This document shows positions 58,701 through 64,000 of a DNA stretch of 64,000 nt, in pieces. The stretch is taken from assembly GCA_017465885.1 (NCBI GenBank), contig JAFTVG010000032.1:1-64000 (forward strand), written 5' to 3'. Source of the DNA: Clostridia bacterium (GTDB taxonomy: Bacteria > Bacillota > Clostridia > Oscillospirales > CAG-272). The first letter of the stretch is position 1, and every line of letters begins with the position of its first letter. The position numbers and the translations under genes are program-made. The notes under the pieces were generated by a model that saw nothing but the letters and a program-made list of their open reading frames with translations, searched no databases and was not told the DNA's origin.

Positions 58701-61700
58701 TTATGCGTTTCTTCTCTTCTTCGAAATCAGAAGGATCAGCCCGCCCATGCTCATCACTGCAACGAGCAGAAGGAGTGCGGTGCCATCGCCGGTTACGGGA
58801 GGCTCAACGGGAGGCTCTACAGGAGGATCTACAGGAGGATCTACAGGAGGATCCACGGGGGGATCCACGGGATCGTCTTCCACCACCTTCACGGTCACGC
58901 CCGCTCTCATACCGTTTGCCGTTGCAAATACAAGGTATTCGCCTGCGGTGTTCAGATCAAGACCGTCGGTGATCCACTGTACTGCCACGTCAGAGGTCTT
59001 GCCGGTGTTGTAGTAAAGGGGCAGCTTTTCGGGAAGTCCTGCGCTCTCAGCGCCCTTCTTCACCCGGATCACGGCGGGAGCCAGCAGCTGGCAGCCCTCC
59101 TCCTCGGGGATGAAGGGGATCAGCTCACCGTTTACGGTGAAGTTCTTGTAGGTCACCTGCTTCTCTGCGCCGTAAGAGCCCGATCTTGCAATCAGGCCGA
59201 TCTTCAGATCCTTTGCGCCTGCCACCGAGGCAGAGGTGAGCTCGGAGATCTTGGTCCAGCTTTCGCCGTCGTAGCTGTAATAGCCGATGAAGTTGTTTCC
59301 TTCCTTCACGAGCTTTAAGAAGGCGTTGGCGTTTGCCTTGCTTTCGGGAGTGTGCTTTTCCACGTAGGTGTTGGTGTAGGTGGAGATGCAGAAGACATTG
59401 GTTCCGGTGAAGTAGGAGTGGTGACGTCTTTCAACGGCGATCAGATTTTCGTCGTTGGCATATGCCACCAAGCCCACAGACTGGAAGTCCTTCGTCAGAC
59501 CGCCCGATACCTCCACGATCACCTCAAAGTCGCCGTCGGGCGCATCGGTCAGCACCAGATTCTTGATCTGGTTGTTGATGTCGCCGGTTAAGATGGTCAG
59601 CTTCAGGGTGGTGGGAGCGGAGGGAGAAAGCACGGGAGCCTTGTCCCCGCCCGTGGGATTGATCACTTCCCAAATGCCGCTGTCGGCAGACTGCTCGGTG
59701 TATACCGCGATCACGGCGGTCTCGGTCTTGCCTGCCTTGCTCGTCATAGTCAGGGCGGTCACGCCGGGGGCGATACCGGTCACGGTACCGTCTGCCGATA
59801 CGGTTGCAATATTCTCGTTGCCGATCTTGTAGGAAATGTCGGTCATCTTGCCGCCGCCCAGGATCTTGCCTGCCACTACGGTCACGGTACGGCTGACCTT
59901 TACGGGGTAATACGCCATACCGTAGTCCTCATCGCCGTTGTAGACCCGCACCTCTACCGTTGCAGAAACGCCTGCGGCGGGGCTTGCATAGCTGATGGTG
60001 GTCACGCCGGGCGCCTTTGCGGTCACGGTGCCGTCATCGGCGATCACCGCCACCGAAGGATCGCTGTAAACGATCTGCAGGTCGGTGAGATCGGCATTGG
60101 CAGGAGTCACGGTGAAGTTCACCTTGAAGGTGTCGCCCGTCTTCACGGTGACCACAGACTTGTCTGCCTCAATGGAGGTGGGCAGCTTTGCGCTGTCCTT
60201 GGGCAGCAGCATCACGGTCACGCCGCCCTGCTTGCCCATATGAAGGGTGATCTCGTCGTTCTTCTTCACCTTCAGGCTTCTGACGGCGATATCGTTTCTG
60301 CCCTCGCCGTCCTCGTAGATCACGGCGATGTATTCCTCTCCCTCGGCAAGGAAGTCAAGGGTCACGGGCACGTCAGCCGCACTCTGGGTCACGCCGCCCA
60401 TATACCAGTTCTCGCCCTGACGGCGCGCCAAAACGGTGTAGCCCGCCACGCTGCCGTCCACGAATTCCAGCTCATCGAAATGAGTGGGCAGGTTCTTCAA
60501 GAAGAACTTCACGTTGCTCTCGTAGTAGGTCTCGGGGTTGCTTGCCATACAAGGCATACCCGATTCAAAGACGATGTTTAACGCCAGCTGCTGTGCGGCG
60601 GTGGTGGTGGAGGAGGGAGTGGGATAAAGGTGGGGAGTGATGTCCATCGCACCGGTCACGCCTCTGGTGTAGGGCCAGATGGTGGTATCGGTGGACCATA
60701 CGCCGCCGTATTCCTGTCCCTTTAAGGACTCTCTGTTGATGATGTTGGGCCAACGGGAAATTTCACCGGTGGGCTTGTTGAAGCCGTGTACGTTGACGAT
60801 CAGCTTCTCCTCAAGACACTTGTCGTAGATGCGCTCCATGATCTCGATGCGGTCTACGCCCTCGGACTCGATGAAGTCCACCTTGATGCCCTTGATGCCC
60901 TTGTCTGCCCACTCTTCAAGGAGTGACAGCTCTTCCACGGTGTCAAGGTCTCTCATCTTGACCCAAGCAACGAAGTAAACGTCCCGCTCTGCGGCGTAGT
61001 CTACCAGATCGTCGAAGTAGTCAAAATAGCCCTCGTATACCTTACCGGGGGTGGTGGCGCCGGGCTGCCAGCCCTCGTCAAGGATCAGATAGGTCCAACC
61101 CATCTCGTGGGCAAGATCCACGTATTTCTTCAGAGTGGATTCGGTTCTCTGTCCCTGGAAGCCCTCGGACAGCCACATCCAGGCGGTCACGCCGGGTCTG
61201 ATCCAGGAATAATCGCCCTCTGCTCTTTCGTTTAAGTTTTCGATCAGGTCGTTTTCAACGATGGTCTCCAGATCCCCCACCACGCCGTATCTCCAGGGGG
61301 AGGTAAAGGCGGGGTCAAGGGTGACCTTCACGCTGCTTGCCGCCATGGGAGCGGGATGCAGCTCTAAGGCTCTGCCGCCGATGCCCTTTAAGAGCGAGCC
61401 GTAATACAGATCCCCAAACAGATCCGCCTCGTTGATCAGGGTGTACAGCCCGTCGTCCACACGGACAAGAGATGCAAAGGCAAGATACTTGCCGTTGGTG
61501 GCGTCCACGGTGTATGCGGGGAAGCCCGACTCATAGGAATATCCGTTTTTCAGGCTGTCCTGACCAAGCTCGGATGCCCAGATGGTGGAGCCGGCGGGGA
61601 AGGTGAAGTTGGTCACTTCGTCGGTGAAGGTGATGGTGGTCTGATTGCCGCTTTTTGCCTCGATCTCGGTTCTGTAGGCAAAGCCGTCGTCGTAGGCACG

Positions 61701-62831
61701 CAGGATCACGGTGAAATAGTAGTCGCCGCAGGCGAATTTCACAGACTGCTCCTTGCAGTAATCGTGGCCCTCGCTATAGCTGCCCGAATACTTCTTGTAG
61801 CTCTCGTTGACGGTCTTTGCGGTGGACTTGGATACGTAGGTGAAGTCCTTGACGAAGTTCACGTCGCCCTTGAAGCCGATCACGGAGGGCTCAACGACCG
61901 TCTTGCCGTCGGTAAATACCGAGTAGCGCAGTCCGTTTGCGGTGTTTTCAAGAAGAATCTGTACCTTGCCCTCGGGAGAAGCCAGAAGGAAGGACTTTTC
62001 GGAGTTTTTGCCGATGCAGTTGACCTTTACCTCAGCCGTGGCGGTCTTGCCGTCCTTGACTGCCTTCACGGTCACGGTCGCCGCACCCTCGCCCTTTGCC
62101 GTGACCGTACCGTCTGCGGAAACGGTGGCAATGGCGGTGTTGGAGGAGGTGAAGCTCATCTTCAGCTTGCTTGCTGCAATTTCCTCGCCCTTAAAGGACA
62201 GGGCAGTAAAGTCGATCTTGGCACTCTCCCCCTCGGCAAGGACCGAAACGGGCAGGCTTGCTTCGACAGAATTCAAGAGATCGCCCACGGAAGGGTCTAA
62301 AACCAGCTTGGCATCACACCAAACGGTGTGATCGGCGTAGTTGCTGCCGTCTGCCTGGGTGGTGATCAGAGAAAGCTTTTCCGTGCCCTCGGGAATGGTC
62401 ACGCGGATGAACTCTGCAGGAGATGCAAATTTCAAAATACCCGATTTGTAGATGGACACGCCGTCTGCCTTCACCTCAAAGTCGGCGGAAGCATAGTCCT
62501 CGTATCCCTGATTGCCCTCGTTGATGCCGATGTAGGCAGTCAGCTCGGTGGCGGGGATATCGGTGATATCGTATTCGATCAGCGAATCAACGTGGGCAAA
62601 CAGACCCTTTTCAAAGGTGATGGGGTCGCCTCCGTTGTTCAGCTTCAGCGTGCCGCCGTTTAAATTCTCGTCGTAATGCACGCTGTTCCAGCCTGCCGTT
62701 GCCACGGTGGGAGTCAGGTCGCTGAGGTAAATGGTGGGCTCCTCGGCAGAACCGCCGAAGCAAAGCGCACTCACCGTCAGCACCACTGCCGCCAAAGCAA
62801 GGATCGCAGTCAAGATTTTACTCTTTTTCAT
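58701..62831 (-). CDS. multidomain GH97 glycoside hydrolase, wall-anchored
   Basis: A 1376-residue secreted enzyme. Signal peptide 1-29; NPCBM-type sugar-binding module about 33-180 (GLFAHVDSLIEYDI); Big2 domain about 190-272; GH97 N-domain about 280-500; catalytic barrel about 520-790 with TYLILDEGWQ, IKVDFIES (Asp652) and NRESLKGQE (Glu701); GH97 C-domain to about 895; two Big2 domains about 905-1080; a concanavalin-like module about 1085-1255 with YYSYDGESWTK; an Ig-like part; a PPVDPPVEPP linker; and PPVTGD plus a final helix with KKRRNA, a sortase-type anchor. GH97 members act on alpha-glucans or alpha-galactosides; Asp652 favours a retaining, galactosidase-like type, but this needs an alignment. 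Confidence 0.88.
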   Translation of the reverse strand: MKKSKILTAILALAAVVLTVSALCFGGSAEEPTIYLSDLTPTVATAGWNSVHYDENLNGGTLKLNNGGDPITFEKGLFAHVDSLIEYDITDIPATELTAYIGINEGNQGYEDYASADFEVKADGVSIYKSGILKFASPAEFIRVTIPEGTEKLSLITTQADGSNYADHTVWCDAKLVLDPSVGDLLNSVEASLPVSVLAEGESAKIDFTALSFKGEEIAASKLKMSFTSSNTAIATVSADGTVTAKGEGAATVTVKAVKDGKTATAEVKVNCIGKNSEKSFLLASPEGKVQILLENTANGLRYSVFTDGKTVVEPSVIGFKGDVNFVKDFTYVSKSTAKTVNESYKKYSGSYSEGHDYCKEQSVKFACGDYYFTVILRAYDDGFAYRTEIEAKSGNQTTITFTDEVTNFTFPAGSTIWASELGQDSLKNGYSYESGFPAYTVDATNGKYLAFASLVRVDDGLYTLINEADLFGDLYYGSLLKGIGGRALELHPAPMAASSVKVTLDPAFTSPWRYGVVGDLETIVENDLIENLNERAEGDYSWIRPGVTAWMWLSEGFQGQRTESTLKKYVDLAHEMGWTYLILDEGWQPGATTPGKVYEGYFDYFDDLVDYAAERDVYFVAWVKMRDLDTVEELSLLEEWADKGIKGIKVDFIESEGVDRIEIMERIYDKCLEEKLIVNVHGFNKPTGEISRWPNIINRESLKGQEYGGVWSTDTTIWPYTRGVTGAMDITPHLYPTPSSTTTAAQQLALNIVFESGMPCMASNPETYYESNVKFFLKNLPTHFDELEFVDGSVAGYTVLARRQGENWYMGGVTQSAADVPVTLDFLAEGEEYIAVIYEDGEGRNDIAVRSLKVKKNDEITLHMGKQGGVTVMLLPKDSAKLPTSIEADKSVVTVKTGDTFKVNFTVTPANADLTDLQIVYSDPSVAVIADDGTVTAKAPGVTTISYASPAAGVSATVEVRVYNGDEDYGMAYYPVKVSRTVTVVAGKILGGGKMTDISYKIGNENIATVSADGTVTGIAPGVTALTMTSKAGKTETAVIAVYTEQSADSGIWEVINPTGGDKAPVLSPSAPTTLKLTILTGDINNQIKNLVLTDAPDGDFEVIVEVSGGLTKDFQSVGLVAYANDENLIAVERRHHSYFTGTNVFCISTYTNTYVEKHTPESKANANAFLKLVKEGNNFIGYYSYDGESWTKISELTSASVAGAKDLKIGLIARSGSYGAEKQVTYKNFTVNGELIPFIPEEEGCQLLAPAVIRVKKGAESAGLPEKLPLYYNTGKTSDVAVQWITDGLDLNTAGEYLVFATANGMRAGVTVKVVEDDPVDPPVDPPVDPPVDPPVEPPVEPPVTGDGTALLLLVAVMSMGGLILLISKKRRNA
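58798..58869 (-). repeat. 12-bp tandem repeat, 6 units, Pro-rich linker
   Basis: Six in-frame 12-bp units (GGAGGATCTACA and variants) encode the PPVD/PPVE spacer before the anchor of the GH97 protein. Confidence 0.9.
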
Positions 62832-62913
62832 AGTCGTTCTCCTCTTTGTTATTCTTCCCTGTTTTAAAGAAGGGGAAGTGCTTCTGAAAACGGGATCTCC
62901 CGTTAAAGCCCTT

Positions 62914-64000
62914 TTAATTGCCCGACAGATAGTTCAACAGCGCGGTCACGTCGGAAATGGATTCCTTACCGTCGCCGTCCAGGTCGGCGGTTGCCTCTTT
63001 GATCAGTGCGCCCTCAGCGCCCGACAGATGGTTCAAGAGCACGGTCACGTCGGAAATGGACTCCTTGCCGTCGCCGTCCAGGTCCCATCCCACAACGAGA
63101 AGCGCCTTCACGGTAAGACCGTCCACGCTGCCCTCGATTTCGTAAACACCGGGACGGGTGAGGTCTGCTCCTTGGGTGTTCCACTCCACTGCCTGCTCTT
63201 CAAAGATGCCCGACTCCATATAGCAGAGCAGCGCTTCGGGAAGTGCCGATGCCTCTGCGCCCACGGGAAGTCTGTAGATCTCTTCGCCGTATGCGACACA
63301 CGCCTTATCCGCCACACAGAAGGGGATCAGGGTGCCGTTGTAGTAAAACTCGCTGTAGGTGCCCCGCTTGTCAGAGCCGTAAGAGCCCGATCTTGCAATG
63401 AGTCCCACCTTCAGGCTTTCGCAAGAGCCTACCGTGACGTTTTCCTGAGGATCTGCCACAGCCGTCCAGCTCTCGCCGTCGTAGCTGTAGTAGCCGGTGA
63501 ACTTGTTGCCCTCCTTCACCAGTCTGACCCACGCCGCGGCATCCTTATCGGTGTCTGCCACGTAGGGCTCGTAGCCGCCGTTTTCATAATCGGTGAGGCA
63601 GAAGACGTTGCCGCCGAAATAGGAGTGGCTTCTGCGCTCCATTGCCACGCCGTTTTCGGCGTTGGCATAGGCAACCAGACCGATGGATTCAAAATCTTGT
63701 GAAAGACCGCCGCTGACCTTGACGCGGATATCGAAATCCTCGGTGGCGGGGGTCAAAAGAACCATATTGGAAATGGTCCTGCCCGCGCCGAAGTCGCCGG
63801 TGGGAATGCCGATGACTGCGGTGGTGCCGTCAAAGGACGGGGTGTCGCCGTTGGGATTGACGATCTGCCAGGTGTCCTCGTCAAAGGCGTTCATCTTGTC
63901 GGAGAAGACCTGCAGGATAAAGCGCTGGCTCTCATCACCCTTGGTGGCAGTCACCGAGGTGATACCGGGCTTGATACCGGTCACAAGACCCTTTTCATCC
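62914..64000 (-). CDS. dockerin-bearing modular secreted protein, N-terminus beyond the right edge
   Basis: The frame is open to 64000, so only the last about 361 residues are seen. In order: the end of a Big2 domain (GLVTGIKPGITSVTATKG), a concanavalin-like module closely matching that of the GH97 protein (SIGLVAYANAENGVAMERRS; YYSYDGESWTAV; LKVGLIARSGSYG), an Ig-like part, and a type-I dockerin with two copies of DLDGDGKESISDVT at the C-terminus. The dockerin would dock the enzyme onto a cohesin. No cohesin is in this window. The missing N-terminal part probably holds a catalytic domain, perhaps another glycosidase. It is 82 bp upstream of the GH97 gene. Confidence 0.85.
   Translation of the reverse strand, partial: DEKGLVTGIKPGITSVTATKGDESQRFILQVFSDKMNAFDEDTWQIVNPNGDTPSFDGTTAVIGIPTGDFGAGRTISNMVLLTPATEDFDIRVKVSGGLSQDFESIGLVAYANAENGVAMERRSHSYFGGNVFCLTDYENGGYEPYVADTDKDAAAWVRLVKEGNKFTGYYSYDGESWTAVADPQENVTVGSCESLKVGLIARSGSYGSDKRGTYSEFYYNGTLIPFCVADKACVAYGEEIYRLPVGAEASALPEALLCYMESGIFEEQAVEWNTQGADLTRPGVYEIEGSVDGLTVKALLVVGWDLDGDGKESISDVTVLLNHLSGAEGALIKEATADLDGDGKESISDVTALLNYLSGN

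Follow-up and report, generated by a model that had tools for sequence, protein, structure and literature searches.

The window, by which is meant the whole 64,000-nucleotide stretch of DNA analysed here, ends in two adjacent genes whose proteins share several accessory modules but carry different attachment signals: one is a GH97 glycosidase with a tail of the wall-sorting type, the other a non-catalytic protein that ends in a dockerin. The preferred reading, to which we give a probability of roughly 0.58, is that of an old gene duplication: one of the two copies would have lost the catalytic core and received a dockerin in place of its sortase signal, and would now dock on a lipoprotein cohesin near the wall enzyme. 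The sequence-based parts of this reading are the modules, the gene order, the lack of a recognisable catalytic domain in one copy, the presence of cohesins and a sortase, and the relationships among the modules. The window is part of contig C17 of a genome (G000) of 1.92 Mb that is 80.6% complete and belongs to a set of five genomes of one genus (G000-G004); two of the congener genomes originate from roe deer cecum and water deer rectum.

The GH97 protein comprises 1376 amino acids and is encoded at 58701..62831 on the minus strand, as are all features of the window described below (open reading frame and Pfam matches). Its order is signal peptide, NPCBM, Big2, GH97 (N-terminal, catalytic and C-terminal domains), further Big2, concanavalin-like module, Big4, proline-rich linker and a terminal PPVTGD-helix-KKRRNA; signal peptides in this protein and its neighbour were called by eye. 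The accessory modules recognised by Pfam are NPCBM, Big_2, DUF1349/GH43_C2 and Big_4. The NPCBM module is of the CBM51 type (62304..62735; 101.5 bits in Pfam); in both proteins it matches PDB structures 2vmg/2vmh, which we take to be CBM51, and 7js4. The concanavalin-like module (DUF1349/GH43_C2) lies at 59130..59570 and the Big_4 Ig-like module at 58911..59051, both by Pfam. The three GH97 domains (60207..61985; Pfam and structure match) score 136.8 (GH97_N), 154 (catalytic) and 73.5 bits (GH97_C), all above cut-off, and identify the protein as a GH97 glycoside hydrolase. The nearest structure to this core is 3a24, an alpha-galactosidase, and residue D652 corresponds in the alignment to the Asp altered to Gly in 5e1q; the Asp is conserved, and the position is presumably that of the nucleophile of retaining GH97 enzymes. 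The enzyme probably resembles the retaining alpha-galactosidase subgroup, a statement of likeness and not of membership (the NCBIfam model for retaining alpha-galactosidases, NF053844, gave 233.8 bits and did not reach its cut-off of 800). The GH97 N, catalytic and C domains and the conserved Asp are thus held in common with the retaining alpha-galactosidase 3a24 and its variant 5e1q, whereas here CBM51, Big2, lectin-like and Big4 modules surround the GH97 core, and the protein has a wall signal.

Only the C-terminal part of the upstream neighbour lies within the window (62914..64000), but the gene is complete on the contig, where it extends to about 65505 and encodes 863 amino acids from the likely start (open reading frame and Pfam). 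The protein is composed of a signal peptide, NPCBM, Big2, a concanavalin-like module, Big2, a second concanavalin-like module (63322..63741; Pfam, structure model and structure search), a Big4-like domain and a two-repeat dockerin (62926..63084). NPCBM, Big_2, DUF1349/GH43_C2 and Dockerin_1 are all over their Pfam cut-offs, while Big_4, at 20.7 bits against 22.1, is just below. The dockerin scores 26.4 bits against a cut-off of 22.9 and both calcium-binding repeats are visible, which marks it as type I. The preliminary description of this locus had correctly noted the Big2, concanavalin-like and Ig-like parts common to the two proteins, which are borne out by the reading frames and Pfam, and the contrast between a PPVTGD-plus-helix end and a two-repeat dockerin. 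It had also taken the pair for two enzymes, with the catalytic domain of the neighbour lying to the right of the window edge; the complete gene on the contig was read and rules this out. No catalytic domain was recognisable in the whole open reading frame with Pfam or NCBIfam, and the neighbour is therefore not a recognisable enzyme; from its modules it looks lectin-like. A model of its C-terminal part reached a mean pLDDT of 67.6, with values of about 80-95 over much of the concanavalin-like module. The modelled module was matched best by 3mep (Z 19.7) and 3o12 (Z 19.3); its matches comprise DUF1349-type proteins, CBM66 and the accessory domain at the C terminus of GH43 beta-xylosidases. A candidate assignment of this module to GH16-type enzymes found no support, since the model matches accessory domains instead. 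The modelled fold fits glycan binding without catalysis, with the proviso that the model is of moderate quality and that likeness of fold does not demonstrate a function.

The two co-directional genes are separated by 82 bases (62832..62913), in which no terminator-like site was found. Immediately before the first gene, that of the dockerin protein, there are a promoter-like site (10 of 12 positions, extended -10) and a strong terminator-like hairpin; these sites are consensus matches only, and the one promoter-like site compares with 1.2 expected by chance. The short gap without a terminator-like site, together with the promoter-like site and terminator-like hairpin before the first gene, makes co-transcription likely, and the two genes look like one operon. 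A small hairpin, AACGGG/CCCGTT, occurs within the gap just 3' of the dockerin gene and is kept in three genomes while the gap sequence around it varies. Its candidacy as a strong terminator was not supported (no site called; fold z of -1.2).

The modules common to the two proteins are NPCBM/CBM51, Big2, the concanavalin-like module and Big4. Their C-terminal blocks are 41.8% identical over 340 columns (E 7.6e-81) and their NPCBM blocks 45.5% identical over 145 columns, and the likeness of both blocks is far beyond chance. To call the modules closely similar, as was done at first, nevertheless overstates the case, as 42-46% identity compares with 82-92% between GH97 orthologues of the genus (for the C-terminal block, 92.2% and 82.5% in two congeners); the orthologue from genus g8, a member of the same family, reaches 55.3% in this block. 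In a tree of the NPCBM module three dockerin proteins are sister to a group of four GH97 proteins like the present one (83/97); these four, which include one from another genus (G011), group apart from the dockerin proteins (91/93). A tree of the joined blocks unites dockerin and GH97 proteins in one clade (100/99), with the GH97 group at 86/92, and a within-genus duplication is rejected (p-AU 0.04). The trees do not include the gene of G101, only the C-terminal part of which was available, and they could be misled by more rapid change along the dockerin line. Because the within-genus alternative is rejected and the NPCBM and joined-block trees agree with this, the duplication is probably old, preceding the split of the two genera; on this view the other genus would have lost its dockerin copy. 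The duplication with a change of attachment that had been proposed for this pair is accordingly kept, as these trees make a common origin of the shared modules likely, and by the alignment of the modules it is probably an old event. Modules of this kind are mobile in surface proteins, and the two sets could instead have been assembled by independent shuffling, an explanation that gains from the order of splits among the concanavalin modules, which their tree alone does not settle. We consider it unlikely, as the order of the N- and C-terminal blocks is preserved, the two genes adjoin in three genomes and the joined blocks give a single clade.

The pair is found with order and strand kept in three of the five genus genomes (G000, G002 and G003), records L023 and L022 being the same two records as G002 and G003 and not further cases; in G001 and G004 the only GH97 is a more distant one, and the pair was not found. 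Within an evenly drawn set of 146 genomes of the family the full neighbour occurs once, in G000 itself, and a GH97 relative was seen in G011 and G101. G002 and G003 gave no match in that set and evidently lie outside the draw.

The end of the GH97 protein (58704..58802) has the layout of a class-B-sortase-type wall-sorting signal, with the motif PPVTGD, a hydrophobic helix and the basic KKRRNA; its scores for LPXTG models are 19.0 bits in Pfam (cut-off 20) and 14.9 in TIGR01167 (15.9). The genome search for a sortase proposed along with the duplication was carried out. A whole-genome search with Pfam PF04203 gave none, and the resulting candidate statement that the genome lacks a sortase was overturned by a profile built from three class B sortases of congeners, which matched a protein on contig C35 (C35:3675-4769 for the profile match; L109:3669-4754) that Pfam then confirmed as a sortase (44.1 bits, cut-off 26.6). 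The class B model TIGR03064 gives it 134.5 bits against a cut-off of 153.75. This protein was missed by the whole-genome search although it scores 44.1 bits with the same PF04203. The congener profile matches in all five genus genomes, in G001 as two fragments, whereas the family search was positive in 39 of 59 genomes and found none in G000 or G001; the remaining absences call for the same caution, as that in G000 proved false. For genome scanning in general this is a reminder that a class B sortase may escape a family search and be wrongly scored as absent.

PPxTGD tails recur in this genome (PPQTGD twice, PPRTGD and PPVTGD). Among orthologues of the GH97 protein the corresponding sequences are PPVTGD (G000), PPSAGD (G002), PPTAGD (G003), VQPGD (G011) and, in a sister genus, PPQTGD (G101). 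Since such tails recur and the sister-genus orthologue has PPQTGD, the tail was probably a sorting signal in the ancestor that is kept in the window copy. With a class B sortase present as well, these same observations make it likely that the window copy is anchored to the wall, as predicted from its sequence. The Thr that precedes the sortase cleavage site is missing in three of the five orthologues, so that anchoring of the GH97 protein may be under no strong selection. The same replacement, which in G002 and G003 occurs despite their class B sortases, speaks for a different reading, in which the tail is a mere C-terminal membrane anchor and its VTG triplet a relic of a sorting signal or a chance likeness to one; the other GH97 proteins of these genomes end in a plain helix and lysines with no motif, and the window tail scores slightly under the LPXTG cut-offs. 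This seems to us rather unlikely for the window copy, given the sortase, the recurrence of PPxTGD on other proteins and the PPQTGD of the sister genus. Substrates of C. difficile SrtB carry (S/P)PXTG motifs, and passages of one source describe the SPKTG sorting motif in that species (PMC4371152). The likeness here is that of a class B sortase with PPxTGD tails; the difference lies in the three of five substrate orthologues that lack Thr and in sorting being predicted from sequence. Two adjoining proteins of unknown family on contig C33 (L108:3591-5768) both end in PPQTGD and are candidate class B sortase substrates.

The cohesin search that had likewise been proposed detected three cohesins in the genome, on three separate proteins. 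Two are side by side on contig C29, each a single-cohesin protein with an N-terminal signal that ends in a lipoprotein-type Cys (LLAGC and CCAGC, by eye); this couple (L005:7771-9030) is itself a duplicate pair, 58% identical. The third, on contig C33 (L006:8114-8818), is a secreted protein of 234 amino acids with a signal peptide, a cohesin and a dockerin. Cohesin lipoprotein genes adjoin a VanY/amidase-type gene in the genus, two each in G000, G002 and G003 and one in G004; the VanY/amidase domains were scanned for the G000 protein, which is a lipoprotein. No cohesin is shown for G001, which has 18 dockerin matches. When the best cohesin locus in each of 29 relatives was inspected by eye, a clear lipoprotein-type signal was seldom seen beyond the genus (G055), and several other cohesin loci had a C-terminal membrane helix.

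Dockerin matches in the genome number 14. The first repeat of 12 of them, the neighbour's included, has the pattern I-[ST]-D-x-[TS]-x-[LI]-L-N; those that depart from it are the C33 adaptor and a protein of contig C12. The domains recognised in the 14 proteins are transglutaminase-like, BspA-type leucine-rich repeat, endonuclease/phosphatase, F5/8C and cohesin, besides those of the neighbour itself and proteins with none recognised. A glycoside hydrolase domain was found by Pfam in none of the 14, a count of recognised domains only, as two proteins are cut at contig ends (the start of C14 and the end of C11) and several have long domainless stretches. None of the cohesins identified is on a cellulosomal scaffold, their carriers being two single-cohesin lipoproteins and a cohesin-dockerin adaptor, although with the genome 80.6% complete a missing or divergent scaffold may exist. 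The scaffold predicted for the neighbour in the preliminary description has therefore to be modified, cohesins being present but on proteins of these kinds. The lipoprotein cohesins are the probable anchors of the dockerin system. It might be argued that the neighbour is one component of an ordinary cellulosome-like complex of many enzymes, with the main scaffold encoded in the missing fifth of this 80.6% complete genome or in a neighbouring species; the divergent dockerin of the C33 adaptor does imply another cohesin somewhere, and proteins with several cohesins are present in other members of the family (e.g., G013, contig C12). The lack of a Pfam glycoside hydrolase domain in all 14 dockerin proteins, and the recurrence of single-cohesin lipoproteins in four of the five genus genomes, render such a complex improbable.

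By the duplication and attachment-change reading, the ancestor would have been a wall-anchored GH97 gene, its product carrying a CBM51 at the N terminus and a lectin-like module at the C terminus and being probably of the retaining alpha-galactosidase type. After duplication of this gene, one copy would have lost its catalytic core, where a second lectin-like module now stands, and had its PPxTGD sorting signal replaced by a dockerin. The GH97 enzyme would be secreted and, in this strain, most likely joined by the class B sortase to peptidoglycan. The dockerin protein would also be secreted, and docked on a cell-surface cohesin, most likely one of the two lipid-anchored single-cohesin proteins, with its CBM51 and lectin-like modules holding glycan close to the enzyme. 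We infer the sortase cleavage, the cohesin bound, the substrate and the cooperation of the two proteins, and it is from the shared binding modules that both are suggested to act on the same glycan. A broader proposal, which we put forward tentatively and hold to be possible but doubtful, is that in one genus of uncultured hindgut Clostridia dockerins are borne not by enzymes but by non-catalytic glycan-binding and repeat proteins, which lipid-anchored single cohesins hold on the cell, while a class B sortase puts glycosidases on the wall, the pair representing one gene split by duplication into an enzyme and a separately anchored binding half.

All parts of this arrangement are already known, and it is an unusual arrangement and not a new system; what is new, as a variant, is how they are combined, together with a set of dockerin proteins on which no glycosidase was recognised, cohesin lipoproteins being its probable holders. 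No paper on this pair was recognised among the publications listed on noncellulosomal or lipoprotein cohesins and on GH97-dockerin, CBM51-dockerin-sortase, NPCBM-cohesin-dockerin and Christensenellales-dockerin combinations, a few of which were read in passages. As one architecture occurs here in two neighbouring genes, in one with a sortase signal and in the other with a dockerin, the costs and benefits of the two attachment routes could be tested on otherwise similar proteins. The genome also provides an example of a cohesin-dockerin system without recognisable dockerin-borne glycosidases.

Comparable systems are known in part. According to passages of one report, about half of the dockerins of Ruminococcus flavefaciens FD-1 are on carbohydrate-active enzymes, GH97-dockerin proteins being listed too, and others are on leucine-rich-repeat, transglutaminase-like and unknown proteins (PMC2930009). 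The types of cargo are similar here, but no carbohydrate-active enzyme was recognised on the dockerins. Passages of a second source state that Ruminococcus cellulosomes are often fixed by a sortase-linked anchoring scaffoldin, and describe microbes, Lachnoclostridium sp. MSJ-17 among them, that contain scaffoldins and are presumably non-cellulolytic (PMC11557425). As described there, such microbes resemble the present genome in having single-cohesin membrane-associated proteins, many dockerin proteins and hardly any cellulosomal enzyme, and differ in their C-terminal membrane helices, where N-terminal lipoprotein signals occur here. The mucinolysome of Limousia, as portrayed in sections of PMC12997984, is likewise a non-cellulose cohesin-dockerin system of gut Clostridia; unlike here, its dockerins bear mucin-degrading enzymes, and it has up to five cohesins per scaffold and an LPxTG anchor.

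Adjoining cohesin proteins that also have dockerin repeats occur in one congener (G003, L096 on contig C218) and point to a second scaffold layer. Clusters of three, two and two adjoining dockerin genes, with long parts without known domain, are found at L101:3-11749 (contig C14), L099 and L100.
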